64,000 nucleotides of DNA from Mesoterricola silvestris. GTDB taxonomy: Bacteria > Acidobacteriota > Holophagae > Holophagales > Holophagaceae. Where the stretch lies: positions 3,146,001-3,210,000 of the forward strand of contig NZ_AP027080.1 in the NCBI RefSeq assembly GCF_030295405.1, read 5' to 3'. Shown here piece by piece: positions 9,868 to 22,402 of the stretch (position 1 is its first letter; the number at the start of each line of letters is the position of its first letter). A program made the translations under genes and the position numbers. The notes below the pieces were generated by a model. The model had not been told where the DNA came from, did not search any database, and worked only from the letters and a program-made list of their open reading frames with translations.

Positions 9868-11229
9868 TCACCCGCCCCCGCAGCCGCGGATGAAGAGTTC
9901 CGACTGGGCCCGGGCCTGGCCCTCGAAGAGCGCCGCCCCCTCCACCAGGCGCAGCCCCGCCTCCCGCGCCCAGGCGGCGAAGGCGGTGTCCTCCTTGTAG
10001 ATCCATTCCACCGCCCATTTCGCCCCCGGGCCCGCGGCCTCCAGCAGGCGCGGGAAGGGCGCGGGGTCCCCGGGCGCCATGCCCAGGGCCGTGGCCTGGA
10101 CGATGCCCACGGGGGCGAAGGCCTCCACCTCCCCCTCGGCCACGGGCCGCCTGCGGGAGGCCTGGAGCACGGGCCAGCCGCGCCGCTGGAGCACCGCGAG
10201 GGTGGTCGCGGCCACGCCGCCGTCCCCCAGCAGGAGCACCGGCCCCCGGGCCAGGCCCTCCAGGGCCGCGTCCAGGGCCCCGGCGTCGGTGTTGGCGGCC
10301 TCCCAGGGAAGGCCGGGCCCGCGCCGGTGGAGGGTGTTGAGGGGCGCGGGCAGGCCCAGCAGGGGCGGCAGGGTCTCCTTCAGGGGGGCCGTGAGGCTCG
10401 CGCCCAGGAGCGGCAGGGCCTCCAGGGCCTCCAGCGCCTCGTCGGCCCCGGCGCATTCCAGGGGAAGGTAGAGAAGGTCCTTGAAGGCGGCCTGGAAGCG
10501 GGGGTTGTGGTAGGCGGGACCCCGGGAGTGGAGCACGGGGCTGCCCAGCACGCCGCAGAGGGCGTGGGCCGCGTGGAGCCGGTGGCAGCGCCAGGCGAGC
10601 ATCCGGGACAGGGGCACCTGCCCGGGCGCGGCCGCGGGCGCGTCGTCGGCGGCGGCGTAAGTGAACGCCCCGCCCCAGGCGAACTGCATGCACCGGCTGG
10701 GGATCCCCCGGGCCCCCATGAGGAAGGCCGAAAGGAGGACGCCGCGGTCCCGGGCCCAGGCCAGGCCGGCCTTGACCTTGGCGTTGTCGGCGAGGCGTCC
10801 GGCGCGGCCCACCCATTTGTAGGCGTCCCCCTCGGGCAGATGGGCCAGGCGCGCGTCCAGGTCGAACACCCCTTCGCCCACGTGCACGGAGCGCAGGAGC
10901 CGCAGGTGGGACCGGGCCTCGGCCAGGGGGGGAGGGATGGGCAGTTCCCATTCCAGGTCCAGCCAGGCGGGACGGCTCGCGGCGGCCTCCACGAGGCGGG
11001 CGATGCGGGAGGCCTCGTCCCCCTCCCAGGCGCCGCCATCCTCCCGGCGCCGGCAGGTCACCAGGCATTTCCGCCGCAGGGACCGCACCAGGTCGGCGGC
11101 GGGGACATCCGGAAAGAGGTCCAGCCGCACTTCGGCCAGGGCTTCGTCCGGGAGCCCGCGGGCGCAGGCCTCGGCGTCCTTCCAGTCGGAGTGGGCGAGG
11201 GTGACGAAGTAGGGCGGCGGCAGGGGCAT
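9868..11229 (-). CDS. aroDE: Fused 3-dehydroquinate dehydratase / shikimate dehydrogenase
   Basis: 453 residues. Residues 1-225 are a type I 3-dehydroquinase: the catalytic His lies in LRSVHVGEG, the Schiff-base Lys in DAYKWVGRA, and the FLMGARGIPSR and APGQVPLSRM segments match the family. Residues 235-453 are shikimate dehydrogenase: GSPVLHSRGPAYHN, the catalytic Lys in LTAPLKETL, Asp in ANTDAG and a dinucleotide loop GDGGVAATTL. It would carry out two consecutive shikimate steps. The fusion order is that of the plant and chlamydial bifunctional enzymes; most bacteria keep the two separate. ATG at 11229 overlaps the mazG stop (TGATG). Confidence 0.88.
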   Translation of the reverse strand: MPLPPPYFVTLAHSDWKDAEACARGLPDEALAEVRLDLFPDVPAADLVRSLRRKCLVTCRRREDGGAWEGDEASRIARLVEAAASRPAWLDLEWELPIPPPLAEARSHLRLLRSVHVGEGVFDLDARLAHLPEGDAYKWVGRAGRLADNAKVKAGLAWARDRGVLLSAFLMGARGIPSRCMQFAWGGAFTYAAADDAPAAAPGQVPLSRMLAWRCHRLHAAHALCGVLGSPVLHSRGPAYHNPRFQAAFKDLLYLPLECAGADEALEALEALPLLGASLTAPLKETLPPLLGLPAPLNTLHRRGPGLPWEAANTDAGALDAALEGLARGPVLLLGDGGVAATTLAVLQRRGWPVLQASRRRPVAEGEVEAFAPVGIVQATALGMAPGDPAPFPRLLEAAGPGAKWAVEWIYKEDTAFAAWAREAGLRLVEGAALFEGQARAQSELFIRGCGGG

Positions 11230-12026
11230 CAGGGCCCCTCCGGGGCCTTCTTGGCCTCCTGCCACGCGGCCTCCAGGGCCCCCAGGTCCTGGGCCTCCCA
11301 TCCCCCGTTGGCTTCGGCGAAATCCTCCACCTTCGTGAAGCGCCCCCTGAACCGGTCCATCTGGCGCCGCAGGGCCCGGTCCGGGTCCACGCCCTTCTTG
11401 CGGGCCCACTGCACGAGGCTGAAGAGCACGTCCCCGAACTCCGATTCCACGCGGTCCAGCTCCGTTTCGGCCTGCAGCTCGCCGATCTCCTCGCGCACCT
11501 TGTCCAGCACGCCCTCCAGGTCGGGCCACTCGAAGCCGACCTTGGCGCACCGCTTGCCGATCTCCATGGCCTCGTCCAGGGGCGAAAGGCTGGCGGCCAT
11601 GCCCTGCAGGAGCCGCTTGCGGGTCTCCTGGCCGCGCCCGGCCTTCTCGTCCCGCTTGATGGCGGCCCAGTTCACCAGCACGTCGGCGGCGTTCTCCACC
11701 TCCACGCCGGCGAACACGTGGGGGTGCCTGCGCACCAGCTTCTCCACCACCATGGCCTCCACGTCCCGCAGGTCGAAGGCGCCGCGCTCCTGGGCCAGCT
11801 GGGCGTGGAAGGCCACCTGCAGCCACAGGTCCCCCAGCTCCTCGCAGAAATGGCGCTCCTTTTCGGGATCCCCGGGCACGTGGGCCGCCAGGGCGTCCAG
11901 GACCTCGGCCGCCTCCTCCCGCAGGAACCGGGCCAGGGACTGGTGGTCCTGCTCCAGATCCCAGGGGCAGCCCGAGACGGGGTTGCGGAGGGCCTGCATC
12001 ACGGCGCGGAGGGAAGTGGGCGTCAT
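11229..12026 (-). CDS. mazG: MazG nucleoside triphosphate pyrophosphohydrolase
   Basis: 265 residues, the usual length of two-domain MazG. The metal-binding EExxE and ExxD elements are visible in the N-terminal domain (LREEAAEVLDAL and CEELGDLWLQVAFHAQLA), and the second domain repeats the pattern (EEIGELQAETE and EFGDVLFSLVQWARKKG). It hydrolyses noncanonical or excess NTPs to NMPs and pyrophosphate. First gene of the leftward run mazG-aroDE-regulator-MoxR-RodZ-like-unknown. Confidence 0.92.
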   Translation of the reverse strand: MTPTSLRAVMQALRNPVSGCPWDLEQDHQSLARFLREEAAEVLDALAAHVPGDPEKERHFCEELGDLWLQVAFHAQLAQERGAFDLRDVEAMVVEKLVRRHPHVFAGVEVENAADVLVNWAAIKRDEKAGRGQETRKRLLQGMAASLSPLDEAMEIGKRCAKVGFEWPDLEGVLDKVREEIGELQAETELDRVESEFGDVLFSLVQWARKKGVDPDRALRRQMDRFRGRFTKVEDFAEANGGWEAQDLGALEAAWQEAKKAPEGP

Positions 12027-12076: not shown

Positions 12077-13477
12077 TCACCAGAGCCGGGTGATCCCCAG
12101 GAGGCCCTCCGGGTCGAAGTGGGCCCGCAGCGCCGCGCCCGCGGCCTTGACGGCCGGGGGAGTGTAGAGGTCGTGGTAGTGCTGGTTGTGGGGGCCCACG
12201 CCGTGCTCGGCGCTGTAGCTGCCCCGGTGCTCCAGCACGGCCAGGTCATAGACCTTGCGCTGCACTCGGGGCACCAGTTCGGCGGCGGGGAGGGGGCTGT
12301 CCGCCTCCCGCCACACCAGGTTCAGGTGGGTGCCGCCGTCGCCCCAGTGGCCGAAGTCGCACACCCGCATGAAGGGGTGCTCCCGGCCCAGCCAGGCCTT
12401 CACGGCCTCCGTGAAGGCGGGGAGGCCCGACCGGGGCACCGCGATGTCGAAGGCCAGGACCCTGCCCTCGCCGCGCAGGCTCTCGGAGACGTGGTGGCGG
12501 ATGGCCCAGAATTCGGCGGGCTTGCCGAAGCGCGCGTCCAGCACGCCCTCCCCGTGGGCCTCCATGTGGGCGCCCAGGGCCTCCTCCAGGAGCGAGGCCA
12601 GGTCGAGGCTGGATTCCGGCAGGGAACTGGCCAGTTCCACCAGGGCCGTGTAGGGCGGCACCTCGTCGAAGGGGTTGCGCAGGGTCTCCTGGTGCCGGAA
12701 CACGGCGGCCAGGGCCTCCCCGGAGATCACCTCGTAGGCCGTGAACACCTCGAAGAGGCCCCCCTCCAGGCTCCGCAGCAGATCCAGCACGGCCCCGCCG
12801 CCCGAAAGCGCCACCAGGGCCACGGCCCGCTGCCGCGGCAGGGGCGCCACCTGCAGCACCGCGCCGGTGACCACGCCGTACAGGCCCGAGGTGCCCGTGA
12901 AGAGCTGCTTCCAGTCCAGGCCCGTGTTGTTCTTGCGCAGGGCCGAAAGGGTGTCCACCACGGTGCCGTCGGCCAGCACCACCTCCAGGCCCAGGAGGTT
13001 CCGGCGCACGTCGCCGTACCGCAGGAGCCGGGTGCCGCCGGTGTTGGTGGCGATCATGCCCCCGATCTGGGGATCGGCGCCCAGGTCAACGGGGAAGTGC
13101 AGGCCGTGCTCCGCCAGGGCCCCGTTGAGGGCGCTGAGGAGGACGCCGCCGTCCACCAGGGCGGTGCGGTCCGTGGGATCGATCTCCATGCGGCGGTTCA
13201 GGCGCTCCAGGCTGAGCACGGCCATGGCCCCGCCCTCGTCGGGCACCGAGGCGCCCACGAGGCCCGTGTTGGCCCCCTGGACGATGACCCGCAGCCCCTT
13301 CCCGTGGCAGTACGCCATGAAGGCCGACACCTCGGCGGTGGTGGAGGGGCGCGCCACGACGCGGGCCCTGCCCTTCCCGTAGCGCCATCCGGTCTCGTAC
13401 TTCTCCCGTTCGGAGGGGTCGGCGAGCACCGCCCCCGGGCCCAGCAGGGCGGTGAGGTCCTCCAGCAATGCGTCCAC
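12077..13477 (-). CDS. FAD-linked D-2-hydroxyglutarate dehydrogenase (GlcD family)
   Basis: 466 residues from a GTG that directly follows the HglS stop, with GGGAG as ribosome site. An FAD-binding type 4 domain (about 30-210; VQGANTGLVGAS, DLGADPQIGGMIATNTGG) is followed by the FAD-oxidase C-terminal domain with the metal-binding histidines in GGTHLNL and the AEHGVG motif. The family oxidises D-2-hydroxy acids such as D-lactate, glycolate or D-2-hydroxyglutarate. Placement directly behind HglS, whose product is D-2-hydroxyglutarate, makes that the likely substrate, yielding 2-oxoglutarate. Substrate assignment is inferred from context. Confidence 0.82.
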   Translation of the reverse strand: MDALLEDLTALLGPGAVLADPSEREKYETGWRYGKGRARVVARPSTTAEVSAFMAYCHGKGLRVIVQGANTGLVGASVPDEGGAMAVLSLERLNRRMEIDPTDRTALVDGGVLLSALNGALAEHGLHFPVDLGADPQIGGMIATNTGGTRLLRYGDVRRNLLGLEVVLADGTVVDTLSALRKNNTGLDWKQLFTGTSGLYGVVTGAVLQVAPLPRQRAVALVALSGGGAVLDLLRSLEGGLFEVFTAYEVISGEALAAVFRHQETLRNPFDEVPPYTALVELASSLPESSLDLASLLEEALGAHMEAHGEGVLDARFGKPAEFWAIRHHVSESLRGEGRVLAFDIAVPRSGLPAFTEAVKAWLGREHPFMRVCDFGHWGDGGTHLNLVWREADSPLPAAELVPRVQRKVYDLAVLEHRGSYSAEHGVGPHNQHYHDLYTPPAVKAAGAALRAHFDPEGLLGITRLW

Positions 13478-14491
13478 TCAGTAGCTCCCCGGGGCGGTCA
13501 TCTTGAAAATGGCCTGGGCGTTGCCCGTGTCGAAGCCCAGGTCCAGGCCACCGCCGGCCAGGGGCCTGCGGGTGATGAATTCGAAGAAGGAGCCCGGCAC
13601 GGTCTTCAGGACCATGTGGCCTTCCAGGTCCCGGAAGGGCCGCTCCACCGGGTCGGCCTGGAAGGCGGTCTGGAGGACCCGGCCGCTGGCGGAGACCTCC
13701 ACGGTCTCCTTCATGGACCGGCCCAGCTCCTTCTGGGCCACCGCCAGGGCCTCCACGTCGGCCACGCGGTCCGTGGCGTGGTTGAAGGCGTTGCCTTCGG
13801 TGGCGATCCAGGCCATCTCGGCGCTCTCCTGGTAGAGGATCCGGTAGTCGGCGAGGGTGGGGGGCTCGTGCTGGCGGTCGAAGCACGCCACCAGGTCGGG
13901 CAGCAGGGCCCGGGCGTCCTCCAGGGGAAGGCTCCCCGTCCCTTCCAGCTCCGCCAGGGGCGCCCGGGCCCGCTCCGGCAGGGGATCCCGGGAGGTGGCC
14001 AGCACGCGGGCCACGGCCTGCTGGAAGGCGGGGCTGAAGGCCCCGGGGTGGAGTTCGCTGAGGAAGAACTGGGGGATGCCCTCGGGCAGGTCCACGTGGC
14101 GGTACGCGCGGCCCGTCATGGAAAGGCGGTCCAGGGGGTACACGTCGGCCAGTTCGTAGCCCAGGGGTCGCAGGATGCGCGTGATGGCCGCCTCCCCCGG
14201 GGGCAGCGGTCCGCTGGGGGCCAGCACGGTGCGCAGGGCGCCGTGGTCGAAGACCACCCGGCCCCCCGCCGCGGCCACGTCCAGCATGTAGGCCCGCGCG
14301 GAAGGCACCCGCTCCTGCAGGTCCCTCAGGAGGATCAGGTTCATGGCGAAGGCCAGCTGGCCCCGGGAAACCCTGGGCCCCCGCGGTTCCAGGAGCGGGC
14401 CGGGAACGGCCACGGAGGCCAGGAGGTCCTCCGCGCGCCGGGTGCCCAGCAGGGCTTCCAGAAGGGTCCGAAGGTTCGTTTCTGCGTGCAT
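13478..14491 (-). CDS. hglS: 2-oxoadipate dioxygenase/decarboxylase (DUF1338, HglS/YdcJ type)
   Basis: 337 residues. The DUF1338 fold is recognised from VFDHGALRT (His83, Arg87), NAFNHATDRVADVEAL (His238) and FFEFITRR (Glu304); these correspond to the iron-binding His-His-Glu set and the substrate-binding Arg known for the family. The enzyme converts 2-oxoadipate with oxygen to D-2-hydroxyglutarate and CO2, a late step of lysine breakdown. I chose the ATG at 14491 because GGAG sits seven bases before it; an upstream GTG at 14503 is possible. It lies between the aconitase-family gene and the D-2-hydroxyglutarate dehydrogenase, and a lysine 6-aminotransferase is encoded 5 kb away. Confidence 0.85.
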   Translation of the reverse strand: MHAETNLRTLLEALLGTRRAEDLLASVAVPGPLLEPRGPRVSRGQLAFAMNLILLRDLQERVPSARAYMLDVAAAGGRVVFDHGALRTVLAPSGPLPPGEAAITRILRPLGYELADVYPLDRLSMTGRAYRHVDLPEGIPQFFLSELHPGAFSPAFQQAVARVLATSRDPLPERARAPLAELEGTGSLPLEDARALLPDLVACFDRQHEPPTLADYRILYQESAEMAWIATEGNAFNHATDRVADVEALAVAQKELGRSMKETVEVSASGRVLQTAFQADPVERPFRDLEGHMVLKTVPGSFFEFITRRPLAGGGLDLGFDTGNAQAIFKMTAPGSY

Positions 14492-14552
14492 CAAGCTCTC
14501 CACAAGGGGACCCGCGCGGGCCCTTCCCTGTCCCTTTCGATGCCGGCGGCGC

Positions 14553-16505
14553 CTAGGGGGTTCCCGCCAGCGCGCGGAAACCGCAGATGGATCCCCGCAG
14601 GGCGCTGGCCGCCACGGTGGCGGGGCTCGCCAGCCACACCTGGCCGGGGCCGCTGCGGCCGGGGTTGTTGCGGTTGATGGCGCTGATGGTGACCTGCTCG
14701 GCCCGGGTGGAGACGCCGGGGCCGGCGTTGATGCAGGCGCCGCATCCGGGGCCCAGCACCCGCGCGCCGGCGGCCTCGAAGGCGTCCAGCCAGCCCTGGG
14801 ATTCCGCGTGGGCCCGCACGTCCTCGCTGCCGAGCTGGATGAAGAACTGGACCCGCAGGGGCACCGTGAGCCCCCGGTCCAGACCCCACTTCACCACGTC
14901 GTAGACCTTCTGCAGATCGGCGCGCTTGGCGCCCGTGCAGCTGCCCACGTAGGCGATGTCCACGGGCACGTCCCGGTCCAGGGAATCCAGGGGCAGGCCG
15001 TTTCCCGCGAAGCCCGGGGAGGCCAGCATGGGCACCACCCGGCCGCAGTCCACCTCCAGGTGGTCCGCGTAGGCGGCCCCCGGGTCCCCGGCCATCCAGG
15101 GTTCCAGGGCGAACCGGGCCCCCCGGCGCTCCGCCAGGTAGCGCACCGTTTCCTCGTCCGGGGCCATCACGCCCGCGAAGGCGCCGAAATCGGCGGCCAT
15201 GTTGGTGAGGGTGGCGCGCTCGTCGATCTGCAGGGCCCCCAGGGCCTCGCCGGCGTATTCGATGATGTGCCCCCGCACGTGCCCGTCCCGGAAGAAGGGC
15301 AGCGTCAGGAGGTGGAGCACCAGGTCCTTGGCGTAGACGCCGGGCTGGAGATGGCCCTTGAGCCGCACCAGGACGGTGGGAGGCACGGTGACCCGCACGT
15401 CCCCGGTGACCCAGGCGGTGGCGATGTCGGCCGCCCCCACCCCGAAGGCCAGGGCGCCCAGGGCGCCGCTGTGGGAGGTGTGGGAATCGGTGCCCACGAT
15501 GACCTGCCCGGGCAGGGCGTACCGCTCGGCCATGAGCAGGTGGCAGATGCCCTCGCAGCCCCCATCGGCGACGTCCCCGTGGAGGCGGATGCCGTTCGCC
15601 GCGCAGAACTCCTCCTGGAGCTTCTTGATGCGCCGGGCCACCTCCATGAGCCCGGGCTGGCCCTCGTCCTGGGTGTAGAACCGCCCCATGAAGGTGAGGT
15701 GGTCGCGGAAGGCCAGGATGGTGCCGGGGTCCTCCATGGGGACCTCCTCGCCCAGGCCCTTGCGGAGCATGGCCACGGCCAGGGGCGTCACCGTCTCGTG
15801 GGAGAAGCGCCAGTCGGCCTTCACCAGGATGCCGTCGCCCGGGGCCACGGAAGCCAGGCCGCGGCCCGCCCCGTTCCGCGCGGCCCGGGCCAGGATCTTC
15901 TCGCCGTAGGTCATGGGCGCGGGCCCGCGGCTCGGCACCGGGATCATGGCCGTCCCGTCGCGCCGGGCCCGGGTGAAGTCGAAGAGCCCGCCCTGGCGGA
16001 TGATCTCAGCCGTGAGCGCGTCCAGCCCATCGGTGAACGCGGACATGGGGATGGCTTCGCCGCCCCGGATGCGGTCCACCAGGGACAGGTCCGTGGAGGT
16101 GAGCAGGCCCAGGGAATGGCAGCAGGCACGGTAGGCCGGGTCGAAGCTCTCGGCGATGACGATGCGGATGCCCGAGGCGCGTTCGGCATAGGGCGCCGCC
16201 TCCCGGGGGCTGCCGATGCCGTGGCGCTTGCCGGACACGGCCACCTCGAAGCCGCCCCGCTTCACGAACCCCTCGTGCACCGGGAAGGCCCCGTCGCACA
16301 GGAGGCCCAGGTACGGGAAGTCCTCCAGGCGCTGGCCGAAGTAGTAGCACACCCAGCCCGGGGCGATCTCGTCCACGGAAACGTAGTCCCGCAGGCGGAC
16401 CTGCTCCAGGGGGAGATCCTCCCCCTGGAACTGCCTCTGCAGACCCGCGGGGTCTCCGCACAGGAGAAGCACCCGACCCTTGGTCTTAACAGAATCCGTC
16501 CTCAT
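14553..16505 (-). CDS. Aconitase-superfamily hydro-lyase with small domain first
   Basis: 650 residues. The N-terminal 180 residues carry the swivel (LeuD-like) domain, recognised by SGKRHGIGSPREAAPYAERA and IVIAESFDPAY. Residues from about 215 on are LeuC-like: VGTDSHTSHSGALGALAFGVGAAD and cluster cysteines in YVGSCTGAKR and GPGCGACINAG, which would bind a [4Fe-4S] cluster. In usual aconitases the swivel is C-terminal, and LeuC/LeuD are separate. Candidates are isopropylmalate isomerase, homoaconitase or a related hydro-lyase; the neighbours (HglS, D-2-hydroxyglutarate dehydrogenase) point to six- or five-carbon dicarboxylates but do not decide it. First gene of the three-gene leftward operon. 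Confidence 0.78.
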   Translation of the reverse strand: MRTDSVKTKGRVLLLCGDPAGLQRQFQGEDLPLEQVRLRDYVSVDEIAPGWVCYYFGQRLEDFPYLGLLCDGAFPVHEGFVKRGGFEVAVSGKRHGIGSPREAAPYAERASGIRIVIAESFDPAYRACCHSLGLLTSTDLSLVDRIRGGEAIPMSAFTDGLDALTAEIIRQGGLFDFTRARRDGTAMIPVPSRGPAPMTYGEKILARAARNGAGRGLASVAPGDGILVKADWRFSHETVTPLAVAMLRKGLGEEVPMEDPGTILAFRDHLTFMGRFYTQDEGQPGLMEVARRIKKLQEEFCAANGIRLHGDVADGGCEGICHLLMAERYALPGQVIVGTDSHTSHSGALGALAFGVGAADIATAWVTGDVRVTVPPTVLVRLKGHLQPGVYAKDLVLHLLTLPFFRDGHVRGHIIEYAGEALGALQIDERATLTNMAADFGAFAGVMAPDEETVRYLAERRGARFALEPWMAGDPGAAYADHLEVDCGRVVPMLASPGFAGNGLPLDSLDRDVPVDIAYVGSCTGAKRADLQKVYDVVKWGLDRGLTVPLRVQFFIQLGSEDVRAHAESQGWLDAFEAAGARVLGPGCGACINAGPGVSTRAEQVTISAINRNNPGRSGPGQVWLASPATVAASALRGSICGFRALAGTP

Positions 16506-16541: not shown

Positions 16542-16913
16542 TTATTTGCCTTCCTCTTCCTCGAGCTTGGCGGAGAGTTCGTCCAGGTGGGCCAGGAGGC
16601 GCTGGGCGAAGGCTTCGTCCTCGAGGATGGTGAAATCGTCGCCCTTGACCTCGAAGATCTCGATGGTCAGGTTGCTGTCGCCTTCGGTGTCCTCGCCGGC
16701 TTCGCCGGCCTCGGAGTAGGCCTGGACCTCGGCGAGGGGGGCCATGATGGCGAAGTGGCGGTCTTCGAAGTCCACCTCCTCCAGGATGGCGAACTCCTCC
16801 TTTTCGCCGTTCTCGTCCTCGAGCTCGACTACCTCGATTTCATCGGCATGGTCCTCGTCGTGGCCGCAGCCGCACGCGTGATTGGGGTCATTGTGATCAT
16901 GGTCGTGGGCCAT
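16542..16913 (-). CDS. DUF1292 family acidic protein with His-rich N-terminus
   Basis: 123 residues, very acidic. The DUF1292 core is seen in EFAILEEVDFEDRHFAIMAPL and the later strand pair LTIEIFEVKGDDFTILEDEAF. Family function is unknown. The first 25 residues are unusual: MAHDHDHNDPNHACGCGHDEDH is rich in His, Asp and Cys and could bind a divalent metal. It stands alone between the aconitase-family operon and the flagellar genes. Confidence 0.8.
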   Translation of the reverse strand: MAHDHDHNDPNHACGCGHDEDHADEIEVVELEDENGEKEEFAILEEVDFEDRHFAIMAPLAEVQAYSEAGEAGEDTEGDSNLTIEIFEVKGDDFTILEDEAFAQRLLAHLDELSAKLEEEEGK

Positions 16914-19690: not shown

Positions 19691-19749
19691 AGTATGCACT
19701 TCGAGCCCCCAGGAACCCCATGGTAGTCTGGCTCATAACCGAGGCCGCC

Positions 19750-21114
19750 ATGAAAAAATCGCAGGAAACCCATGTACAGCCCTCCGAGGTCTTCGACGTC
19801 CTCGGCCGCCATCTCCTCGTGGACGGCTTCCACATGGTCATGGACCTGGAGAAATCCCACGGGTCCTGGATCGTGGACGCCCGCGACGGGAAGCGCTACC
19901 TCGACTTCTACACCTTCTTCGCCACCGCGCCCCTGGGCCACAACCATCCCCGCCTGAGGGACGAAGCCTTCCAGGCCAGGCTGGGCTCCATCGCCGTGAA
20001 CAAGCCCGCCAACTCCGATATCTACACCACCGCCTACGCCGAATGGGTGGAGGCCTTCGCCACCAAGGCGGCCCCGGACTTCCTGCCCCACCTGTTCTGG
20101 ATCGACGGCGGCGCCCTGGCCGTGGAGAACGCCCTCAAGGCCGCCTTCGACTGGAAGGTGCGCAAGAACCTGGAGAAGGGCCTTCCCGAGAAGGGCTCCA
20201 AGGTCATCCACTTCAAGGAGGCCTTCCACGGGCGCTCGGGCTACACCCTCAGCCTCACCAACACCGCCGACCCGAGGAAGTACCAGTACTTCCCCAAGTT
20301 CGACTGGCCCCGCATCCCCAATCCCAAGATCACCTTCCCCCTGGACGCCGAGAACCTGGCCAAGGTCGAGCAGATGGAGAAGGTCGCCCTGGACCAGATC
20401 GAGGCCGTGATCCGGCAGGATCCCGCCGAGGTGGCCTGCCTGATCATCGAGCCCATCCAGGGCGAGGGCGGCGACAACCACTTCCGCACCGAGTTCCTGC
20501 AGGCCCTGCGCGTCCTGGCCGACCGGCACGAGTTCCTCCTGATCTTCGACGAGGTTCAGACGGGCTTCGGCGCCACCGGCAAGTGGTGGGCCCACGAGCA
20601 CCACGCCGTGCGCCCCGACATCCTCGTCTTCGGCAAGAAGACCCAGTGCTGCGGCATCGCCGCCAGCGCGCGCCTGGACGAGGTCGAGGGCGTGTTCAAG
20701 GTGCCCAGCCGCATCAACAGCACCTGGGGCGGCAACCTCGTGGACATGGTCCGCGGCACCCGCATCATCGACGTGATGGTCGAGGACCAGCTGGTGGAGC
20801 ACTGCGCCACCCAGGGCAAGCGGCTGCTCAAGGGCCTCCAGGAGATCCACGCGGAGTTCCCCGAATTCACCAGCAACCCCCGCGGCAAGGGCCTCTTCTG
20901 CGCCCTGGACATGGCCACCCCCGCCCTGCGCACCACCACGGTGTCCAAGGCCCAGGACCTGGGCATGATCATCCTCTCCACCGGCCACAACGGCCTCCGG
21001 TTCCGGCCCGCCCTCAACCTGGCCACCGAGGACCTGGACCTGGGCGTGGAGCTCCTGCAGAAGAGCATCCGCCTCGCCGTGGACGCCACCCGCCCCCACA
21101 TGGCGAAGGTCTAG
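19750..21114 (+). CDS. lat: L-lysine 6-aminotransferase (lysine epsilon-aminotransferase)
   Basis: 454 residues, class III PLP aminotransferase. The lysine-specific subgroup is recognised by [40 protein letters not shown] and FGKKTQCCG; Lys296/297 in the last motif is the PLP Schiff base. It moves the epsilon amino group of lysine to 2-oxoglutarate, giving 2-aminoadipate 6-semialdehyde. I use the ATG at 19750 (CGAGG before it) rather than one 30 bases upstream. With HglS and the D-2-hydroxyglutarate dehydrogenase nearby it supplies the first step of a lysine-to-2-oxoglutarate route. Confidence 0.9.
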
Positions 21115-21557
21115 TGCAGGTCGAGCTCTACTGCGACGGCGCGTGTCTCGGGAACCCCGGCCCCGGCGGCTGGGGTTTCCTGCTTCGCGTGAAGACCACC
21201 GACGGCGTGAAGGAACGGGAGGGCTCCGGCGCCGAGGCCGGCACCACCAACAACAAGATGGAGCTCACCGCCGCCATCGAGGGCCTGAAGCTCCTCACCA
21301 AGCCCTGCTCCGTGGCCCTGCACAGCGACAGCCAGTACGTGGTGAAGGGCATCCAGTCCTGGATCAAGGGCTGGAAGGCCAAGGCCTGGCGCAAGGCCGA
21401 CGGCAAGCCGGTGCTCAATGTGGAACTGTGGAAGGAACTGGACGCCCTCTGCCTGAAACACCGGGTGGAGGCCCATTGGGTGAAGGGCCACGCCGGGCAT
21501 CCCGAAAACGAGCGCGTGGACCGGCTGGCTTCGGAGGCGGCGAAGGGGATCGCCTAG
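21114..21557 (+). CDS. rnhA: Ribonuclease HI
   Basis: 147 residues from a GTG that overlaps the last base of the lat stop (TAGTG). All acidic catalytic positions are in place: Asp in [14 protein letters not shown], Glu in NNKMELTAA, Asp in [11 protein letters not shown] and Asp in NERVDRLA, along with the basic handle-type segment [16 protein letters not shown]. It removes RNA from RNA-DNA hybrids. The overlap implies translational coupling with lat. Confidence 0.92.
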
Positions 21558-21861: not shown

Positions 21862-22371
21862 CTACCCGGTGATGGACTGGATCGCCAACGGCCACAGCTC
21901 CTGGGGATCCTCCGGCATGAGCCATTCGGGGTTCAGGGGCACCCGCACCCAGGCCCCCTCCTGGATCTCCTGGTCCAGCTGCCCGGCTCCCCAGCCCGCA
22001 TAGCCCAGGAAGAGCCGGAAGGTGGAGCGGGGCTCCACCAGGAGGGATTCCAGGAGGTCCTTGCGGTAGCTGATGAAATCCGTGAAGTCCAGGACCGTGT
22101 CCTCGGCCTCGGGGAGGCCCCCGCGCACCAGGATGATGCCCCGCTGGGGATCCACGGGGCCGCCCCGCCAGGCGGTGGCGTCCTCGTCCCCCGTGAAGGC
22201 CAGGCGGCTCTCCTGGCAGATCTGCTGGAGGGTCACGGGCAGGGGGCGGTTGAGGATCACGCCCATGCCGCCGGCTTCGTCGTGCTCCACCAGGAGCACC
22301 ACCGAGTGGAGGAAGTTCGGGTCCAGGAGCATTGGACTCGCCACAAGCAGACATGGGGCCAGTTGACTCAT
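21862..22371 (-). CDS. YqgE/AlgH (UPF0301) family protein
   Basis: 169 residues. Family hallmarks: ASPMLLDPNFLHSVVLLVEHD, GGMGVILNRPLP, WRGGPVDPQRGIILVRGG and FLGYAGWGAGQLDQEIQEGAW. Members are small cytosolic proteins of uncertain role; AlgH was first linked to alginate regulation in Pseudomonas. ATG at 22371; an in-frame start 12 bases upstream is possible. Divergent from the membrane protein at 22403. Confidence 0.9.
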   Translation of the reverse strand: MSQLAPCLLVASPMLLDPNFLHSVVLLVEHDEAGGMGVILNRPLPVTLQQICQESRLAFTGDEDATAWRGGPVDPQRGIILVRGGLPEAEDTVLDFTDFISYRKDLLESLLVEPRSTFRLFLGYAGWGAGQLDQEIQEGAWVRVPLNPEWLMPEDPQELWPLAIQSITG

Positions 22372-22402
22372 GCCCACGATCATAACGCGCTACCCTCAGA
22401 GA

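Follow-up and report, generated by a model that had tools for sequence, protein, structure and literature searches.

A separate swivel-first subfamily of the aconitase superfamily, with a probably incidental link to HglS and a rewritten active site in one genus

What does an aconitase-type protein do directly upstream of an HglS-family gene? Within the window (the whole 64,000-nucleotide stretch analyzed here), we confirmed a minus-strand open reading frame at 14553 to 16505 with an ATG start, which encodes a permuted (swivel-first) aconitase-superfamily protein of 650 amino acids according to Pfam matches, an AlphaFold2 model, and structure alignment (here called PermAcn). As the first-pass annotation had proposed, its neighbors are hglS and D2HGDH. 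An HglS/DUF1338-family protein (2-oxoadipate dioxygenase/decarboxylase family; 13478 to 14503, minus strand; PF07063, 94.1 bits, cut-off 25) follows after 49 nt, and an FAD-linked 2-hydroxyacid dehydrogenase (D2HGDH-like; 12077 to 13477, minus strand; Pfam FAD_binding_4/FAD-oxidase_C) follows that gene after 0 nt. For the HglS-family gene, an ATG at 14491 may be the better start. MazG (11229 to 12026, minus strand; profile match) forms the downstream end of the run. Directly upstream on the same strand, the gene for a conserved small protein of 123 amino acids (16542 to 16913, minus strand; no Pfam match) ends 36 nt before PermAcn, and is itself preceded by a flagellar group comprising a flgA-like gene, called on the basis of PF13144, and genes that we take from their sequence to be flgF and flgG. 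Because these upstream genes continue the run at gaps of ≤52 nt, PermAcn lies inside it rather than clearly at its head, and the earlier description of a gene leading an hglS-D2HGDH operon does not clearly apply. A divergent L-lysine 6-transaminase gene (LAT; 19720 to 21114, plus strand; TIGR03251, 639 bits, cut-off 520.8) adds a lysine catabolism context. Beyond it, the frames at 21120 to 21557 (plus strand) and 21862 to 22383 (minus strand) presumably encode RNase HI and a YqgE/AlgH-family protein, as read by eye.

Two further features of this neighborhood were observed. The 123-residue protein is rich in histidine and acidic residues and is very strongly conserved (dN/dS 0.02 to 0.13). Its gene immediately precedes PermAcn throughout the window genus, and elsewhere in the Holophagaceae it occurs near PermAcn whether HglS is present or not. 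The gap between PermAcn and HglS (14504 to 14552, minus strand) contains a GC-rich inverted repeat, and similar repeats were seen by eye in several members of the genus. This repeat showed no excess stability over shuffled sequences (z = −0.38); it may influence read-through or translation of HglS. A consensus search detected no promoter between the genes, and the organism may use other promoters.

The domain order of PermAcn was determined first by profile and then in a predicted structure. Pfam placed Aconitase_C (swivel, domain 4) at residues 86 to 136 (16098 to 16250, minus strand; 30.4 bits, cut-off 22.8) and aconitase domains 1 to 3 at residues 226 to 638 (14592 to 15830, minus strand; PF00330, 297.5 bits). 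In the AlphaFold2 model (a single prediction; pLDDT 89.4, pTM 0.90), residues 1 to 185 adopted a swivel fold that aligned to LeuD-type small subunits, and residues 197 to 646 aligned to LeuC/HacA large subunits, with 4kp2 as the best structural match for the large half (Z 47.3, rmsd 1.6 over 409 residues). Together, the Pfam matches and the model alignments indicate that the swivel-before-catalytic order is real rather than due to chance, which bears out the earlier claim that a LeuD-like domain precedes a LeuC-like one. The accompanying statement that this order is opposite to that of canonical aconitase stands relative to AcnA and mitochondrial aconitase but not relative to AcnB and AcnX type I: domain 4 is described as N-terminal in AcnB, fungal isopropylmalate isomerase, and AcnX type I (PMC8184944). 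PermAcn has both the fold that marks the superfamily (domains 1 to 3 plus swivel, by Pfam and model) and its three cluster cysteines, C523, C588, and C591, in six of six genomes of the window genus.

The superfamily is divided into eight subfamilies in PMC8184944, and several known families resemble PermAcn. AcnB (Escherichia coli, 1l5j) is likewise a single chain with the swivel N-terminal to domains 1 to 3, and it aligned to model residues 1 to 649 (Z 36.5, rmsd 3.6 over 573 residues). However, PermAcn leaves no room for the extra HEAT-like domain of AcnB (650 versus 862 amino acids), it scored 69.4 bits with NCBIfam acnB (TIGR00117; cut-off, 1287.2), and the window genome has a separate AcnB-like gene. 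AcnX type I (7cnp, 7d2r) is also a single chain with the order 4-1-2-3 (PMC8184944); its alignment spanned PermAcn residues 7 to 644 at 12 to 14% identity (Z 17.4, rmsd 5.9 over 462). Unlike AcnX, PermAcn matches the PF00330 aconitase family and has three conserved cysteines, and AcnX families were absent among the matches listed (both for Pfam; the best 25 of 26 for NCBIfam); the likeness is one of fold only. Membership in AcnB was set aside, given a TIGR00117 score far below cut-off, and so, less firmly, was membership in AcnX, given the match to PF00330 instead. Nearest to both halves of PermAcn, by sequence and by structure, are the LeuCD/HacAB enzymes (Methanocaldococcus jannaschii 4kp1, 4kp2, and 3vba), and the swivel loop resembles that of the isopropylmalate/citramalate isomerase small subunit. 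In contrast to these enzymes, PermAcn is fused, has the small half first, and forms its own clade. It reached none of the NCBIfam cut-offs seen for LeuC, HacA, AcnA, AcnB, and AcnD, among them those of NF001614 (290.2 versus 385 bits), TIGR01343 (273.9 versus 385.7), TIGR02086 (254.5 versus 410.15), and TIGR00170 (172.2 versus 560.25).

A phylogeny of permuted aconitases, which the first-pass annotation had proposed as a check, placed all permuted rows in one clade (58/58, SH-aLRT 100) in a rapid LG+G4 analysis in which AcnB and the fused rows had long branches. In the same tree, the Holophagaceae permuted rows clustered with Pseudomonadota (support 99). The best-supported view is that the PermAcn clade is a separate, uncharacterized, well-supported swivel-first subfamily of the known aconitase superfamily. 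A literature search on permuted and swivel aconitases, HglS, AcnX, maleate/citraconate hydratases, and Ser642, made mostly at the level of titles and the beginnings of abstracts, found no published family matching PermAcn and no paper on its operon partners. As a separate observation, three genomes with the permuted enzyme (G071, G063, and G210) also encode single-chain aconitase-like proteins of 652 to 707 amino acids in the canonical order, large half first (L206, L207, and L209).

The PermAcn clade is widespread in soil bacteria. Among 297 sampled genomes of the phylum, PermAcn was matched in 73, and 67 holders remained after removal of six genomes with only LeuC-like matches (G004, G006, G240, G256, G264, and G274); the clade also occurs in Pseudomonadota, Gemmatimonadota, Planctomycetota, and Myxococcota. 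At most of its loci in Acidobacteriota, PermAcn has no conserved operon partner. Relatives elsewhere lie in catabolic operons that include dicarboxylate transport; the partners in Pseudomonadota are LysR regulators, TctC or major facilitator superfamily (MFS) uptake systems, and either class III CoA-transferases with proteins like HMG-CoA lyase (HMGL) or RraA-like aldolases. HMGL-like and class III CoA-transferase sequences lie beside PermAcn on plasmids of Paraburkholderia, where they adjoin each other and are accompanied by an HPPD-like VOC dioxygenase, and of Roseomonas, where they are fused; TctC and RraA-like partners occur in Comamonas and Diaphorobacter. The Paraburkholderia dioxygenase gene (L194, 6333 to 7409) lies inside the HMGL-CoA-transferase-PermAcn operon, a curious parallel to the window, since HglS is itself an Fe(II) dioxygenase related to the HPPD-like VOC fold.

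Dehydrogenases and the swivel loop bear on the class of substrate. An isopropylmalate/tartrate-type dehydrogenase scoring above the NF002898 cut-off adjoins PermAcn in G066, in G221, and in a Krumholzibacteriota locus (L163), where the two genes overlap by 4 nt. Seven computed Geothrix loci have a related dehydrogenase 3.0 to 4.6 kb from PermAcn; the G205 enzyme and the copy in the window genome, which is not near PermAcn, both exceed the tartrate dehydrogenase cut-off. Dehydrogenases of the NF002898 type (E ≤ 1e-85) were found in 55 of 67 PermAcn holders versus 84 of 230 other genomes, a comparison that ignores phylogeny, and 12 of the 67 holders had none at this threshold. In the swivel loop, a region that follows a rule of substrate specificity in this superfamily, PermAcn lines up with the YLVY region in the small subunit of isopropylmalate/citramalate isomerase, and the arginine that homoaconitase has there is missing. 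The substrates of RraA-type aldolases and of tartrate/D-malate dehydrogenases are known, and maleate and citraconate are plausible here. Taken together, the operon partners, the dehydrogenases, and the swivel loop suggest that the family may act as a hydro-lyase for small hydroxy-dicarboxylates (D-malate/maleate, citramalate/citraconate), and from them we infer the substrate class. The earlier suggestion that the enzyme isomerizes a related dicarboxylate is thus plausible for the family by its operon partners. It fares worse in the window genus, whose protein may not even isomerize a dicarboxylate, as residues expected for ordinary aconitase chemistry have been lost.

We favor, with a probability of roughly 60%, the explanation that PermAcn represents a separate, dicarboxylate-type, swivel-first subfamily, that its link to HglS is incidental, and that its active site has been rewritten in the window genus. 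Under this explanation, PermAcn belongs to a monophyletic aconitase-superfamily subfamily with the domain order 4-1-2-3. To hydrate, dehydrate, or isomerize small hydroxy-dicarboxylates resembling malate or citramalate, ordinary members of this subfamily most likely rely on a [4Fe-4S] cluster and an S642-type serine. The product would then undergo oxidative decarboxylation by a tartrate/isopropylmalate-type dehydrogenase or, alternatively, activation by a class III CoA-transferase followed by cleavage by a lyase. In the window genus, the cluster cysteines, arginines, and fold have been retained, but the substrate and base positions have been rewritten; the protein there probably does not carry out the ancestral reaction any more, even though the gene is still maintained by selection.

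The rewriting of the active site was evident when six genomes of the window genus were compared with 112 distinct relatives (not independent lineages), with equivalences taken from a profile alignment to pig aconitase (5acn). The cluster ligands are unchanged: C588 and C591 (14733 to 14744, minus strand; equivalents of aconitase C421 and C424) and the third cysteine, C523 (14937 to 14939, minus strand), are kept by all six members of the genus and by all relatives in which the column is filled. Equivalents of R447, R452, and R644 are likewise kept in six of six genus genomes. In contrast, S99-P100 (16206 to 16211, minus strand), corresponding to the aconitase base S642 and to S643, is S-S in relatives. 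At the S642 position, Ser is found in 111 of 112 relatives (L097 being the one that also departs), against S, S, S, N, G, and G in the genus; at the S643 position, Ser is found in 111 of 112 relatives, against P or A. The N671 equivalent, C128 (16122 to 16124, minus strand), is Asn in 112/112 relatives and C, Y, Y, Y, Q, and H in the six genus members. D439 (15189 to 15191, minus strand) replaces a Glu that is found in 112/112 relatives at the E262 position; the genus has D in five genomes and V in one. N614 (14664 to 14666, minus strand) is equivalent to F449, which is Phe/Tyr in 111/111 relatives with the column filled and N or S in the genus. Thus, the S643, E262, and N671 equivalents are altered in six of six genus genomes and the S642 equivalent in three. 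Of the near-invariant positions, 56 lie in the swivel and 145 in the rest of the chain; G000 differs at 13 and 15 of them, respectively, and G115, an HglS holder of another genus, at 2 and 1. S643, E262, and F449 each have a role in aconitase. S642 serves as the general base in aconitase; in AcnX, the corresponding mutation, S70A, left almost no activity (PMC8184944).

Despite these substitutions, the gene does not look abandoned. Each of the six genus genomes has one such gene at E ≤ 1e-100, and no in-match stop codon was found in any of them. Among the four closest genus genomes, PermAcn dN/dS was 0.15 to 0.28, similar to the values for HglS (0.20 to 0.39) and D2HGDH (0.14 to 0.33). The Geothrix clade gave a median of 0.171 (range, 0.094 to 0.305) over 153 pairs of 21 sequences, after 2 of the 23 found were left out for an in-frame stop; the values for the four genus genomes fall within this range or close to it. 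Values in the genus reached 0.49 against G299, where dS is probably underestimated; dS saturates at larger distances. Considering the rewritten site, the purifying dN/dS values, and the base role of S642 with the S70A result, we conclude that PermAcn in the window genus is kept under purifying selection and that its ancestral chemistry has probably been lost or changed; the enzyme has probably been repurposed. A repurposed enzyme or pseudoenzyme that senses iron or a metabolite, serves as a partner protein for D2HGDH and HglS, or catalyzes a non-aconitase reaction is a possibility to which we give a low probability. If a sensor or partner role were true, it would mirror, in a bacterium, the moonlighting of IRP1. 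Simple decay after loss of the pathway is an unlikely account of the same data. It would explain the loss of the general base in three of six genomes and the variable residues at positions 124 to 131; it sits poorly with matches free of stop codons in all six genomes, with dN/dS values in close relatives that resemble those of HglS and D2HGDH, with fixed cluster cysteines, and with the finding that most large-domain changes are common to five or six of the six genomes, that is, fixed and then kept.

A role in amino acid biosynthesis, as an isopropylmalate isomerase or homoaconitase, is improbable. HacA/LeuC large and LeuD small subunits are the nearest relatives by structure and sequence, and an isopropylmalate-type dehydrogenase is adjacent in three loci. 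However, the best score against any NCBIfam LeuC/HacA model was below cut-off (290.2 versus 385), and the first-pass annotation's own objection, that the HglS linkage would be incidental if the genome lacked any other leuCD and this enzyme complemented leucine auxotrophy, does not arise here: the window genome has a leuD-leuC-leuB-leuA operon at genome positions 4361462 to 4364762 and a second LeuC/LeuD-like pair at 268.6 to 270.0 kb, besides an AcnB-like gene at 1505514. PermAcn also persists in four genomes (G267, G067, G238, and G001) that have AcnA and neither another LeuC nor a LeuA dimer domain; in four genomes examined, it is the sole PF00330 gene besides AcnA. A leucine role was rejected on these grounds, and PermAcn is therefore neither the leucine enzyme nor the only aconitase. 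The second pair, at C1:264800-270600 (L200), is common to Geothrix and lies with a dehydrogenase whose nearest matches, below cut-off, are methanogen homoisocitrate dehydrogenases; it could belong to another isomerase/dehydrogenase pathway.

The HglS linkage itself had been read in the first-pass annotation as a possible new branch of lysine catabolism. In such a branch, PermAcn would work together with HglS, either between 2-oxoadipate, 2-hydroxyglutarate, and 2-oxoglutarate or on homocitrate-type acids. Some observations point that way: PermAcn lies directly upstream of HglS-D2HGDH in six genomes of two genera (G000, G300, G297, G298, G097, and G115), lysine 6-transaminase is nearby, and the active site is altered in the same genus. 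Across the phylum, no association was found. With PF07063 matched in 16 of the 297 genomes, 5 genomes had both genes, 62 had PermAcn only, 11 of the 16 had HglS only, and 219 had neither; HglS occurred in 5/67 holders versus 11/230 nonholders (P = 0.37) and, outside the window organism's own family, in 2/42 versus 11/228 (P = 1.0), in tests that ignore phylogeny. The proposal that permuted enzymes might recur beside DUF1338 fared no better: HglS adjoined PermAcn in 3 of 41 neighborhoods (the one in the window and 40 more selected among the 67 holders, with heuristic gene calls) and was near it in 1 of 80 named loci (L095, a metagenome-assembled genome of the same genus). Linkage to HglS as a general rule was rejected on these counts. 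Lysine 6-transaminase, found in 59 of the 77 genomes of the family versus 8 of 77 for HglS, was likewise rejected as specific to HglS holders; G115 has HglS without it, and in G298 only a fragment of it was seen, at a contig end.

The order of genes in relatives suggests how the linkage arose. Geothrix keeps the arrangement flg, small protein, (sometimes one or two genes), PermAcn, another gene, and mazG, without HglS. Of six Geothrix genomes tested, five (G220, G205, G133, G236, and G053) have the D2HGDH orthologue (65 to 67% identity), located far from PermAcn, and G244 does not. Because the same PermAcn site exists there without HglS, insertion of HglS-D2HGDH at a later time between a resident PermAcn and mazG looks like the simplest history. 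The HglS-D2HGDH pair also occurs in G176 (60% identity), with no PermAcn found in the 1.26 kb upstream, and none was found within ∼1.3 kb upstream of HglS in two other holders (G341 and G342). All seven examined Holophagaceae loci have D2HGDH after PermAcn, and six have HglS. In the remaining one, that of genus member G299 (L182/L096), PermAcn is followed directly by D2HGDH, and PF07063 has no match anywhere in this 94%-complete genome, so HglS would appear to be a dispensable part of the trio. The link between PermAcn and HglS looks recent and probably incidental, and the seven D2HGDH and six HglS neighbors leave room for a lineage-specific one.

The chemistry also argues against a lysine branch. 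The His/His/Glu metal triad and Arg74 of HglS are described in PMC7286885, and of the 2-oxoacids assayed there, the published enzyme used 2-oxoadipate alone. All six HglS sequences carry the motifs D-H-G-A-[LV]-R, [NC]-A-F-N-H, and F-[FH]-E-F-I-T-R, which by motif and spacing retain the triad and the Arg74 equivalent. The HglS-family protein in the window scored 24.5 bits against the NF050083 equivalog (cut-off, 600), a weak test as that model is mycobacterial. PermAcn is a protein different from this PF07063 neighbor, and D-2-hydroxyglutarate, on chemical reasoning, lacks a hydrogen suited to aconitase-type elimination. Nor do the linkage and the altered site go together, as G115 is linked yet its site is unchanged, and in G299 the site is changed although HglS is absent. 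HglS needs no hydro-lyase, and no new lysine branch is required; with no co-occurrence, the pair alone in G176, and the Geothrix site without HglS, such a branch is very improbable. Instead, HglS-D2HGDH would form a self-sufficient module at the end of lysine breakdown (2-oxoadipate to D-2-hydroxyglutarate to 2-oxoglutarate), inserted downstream of an already resident PermAcn, and the linkage would provide at most shared transcription rather than a new hydro-lyase step.

In mitochondrial aconitase, R580 has a known role. A spare citrate/isocitrate isoenzyme is the least probable reading, since membership in the superfamily and a swivel-first order common to AcnB are offset by an AcnA or AcnB in nearly all PermAcn holders examined, the window genome included, and by the lack of an arginine at the aligned place of the R580 loop in the sequences compared.

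A separate dicarboxylate-type subfamily, present in at least six phyla, would extend the aconitase superfamily beyond its usual small set. From its operon partners a reaction class can be predicted, which could fill gaps in how dicarboxylate catabolism is annotated, and recognition of the link to HglS as probably incidental keeps a false lysine branch out of annotation. The lineage with the rewritten site offers a natural experiment on an Fe-S hydro-lyase changing or losing its reaction.
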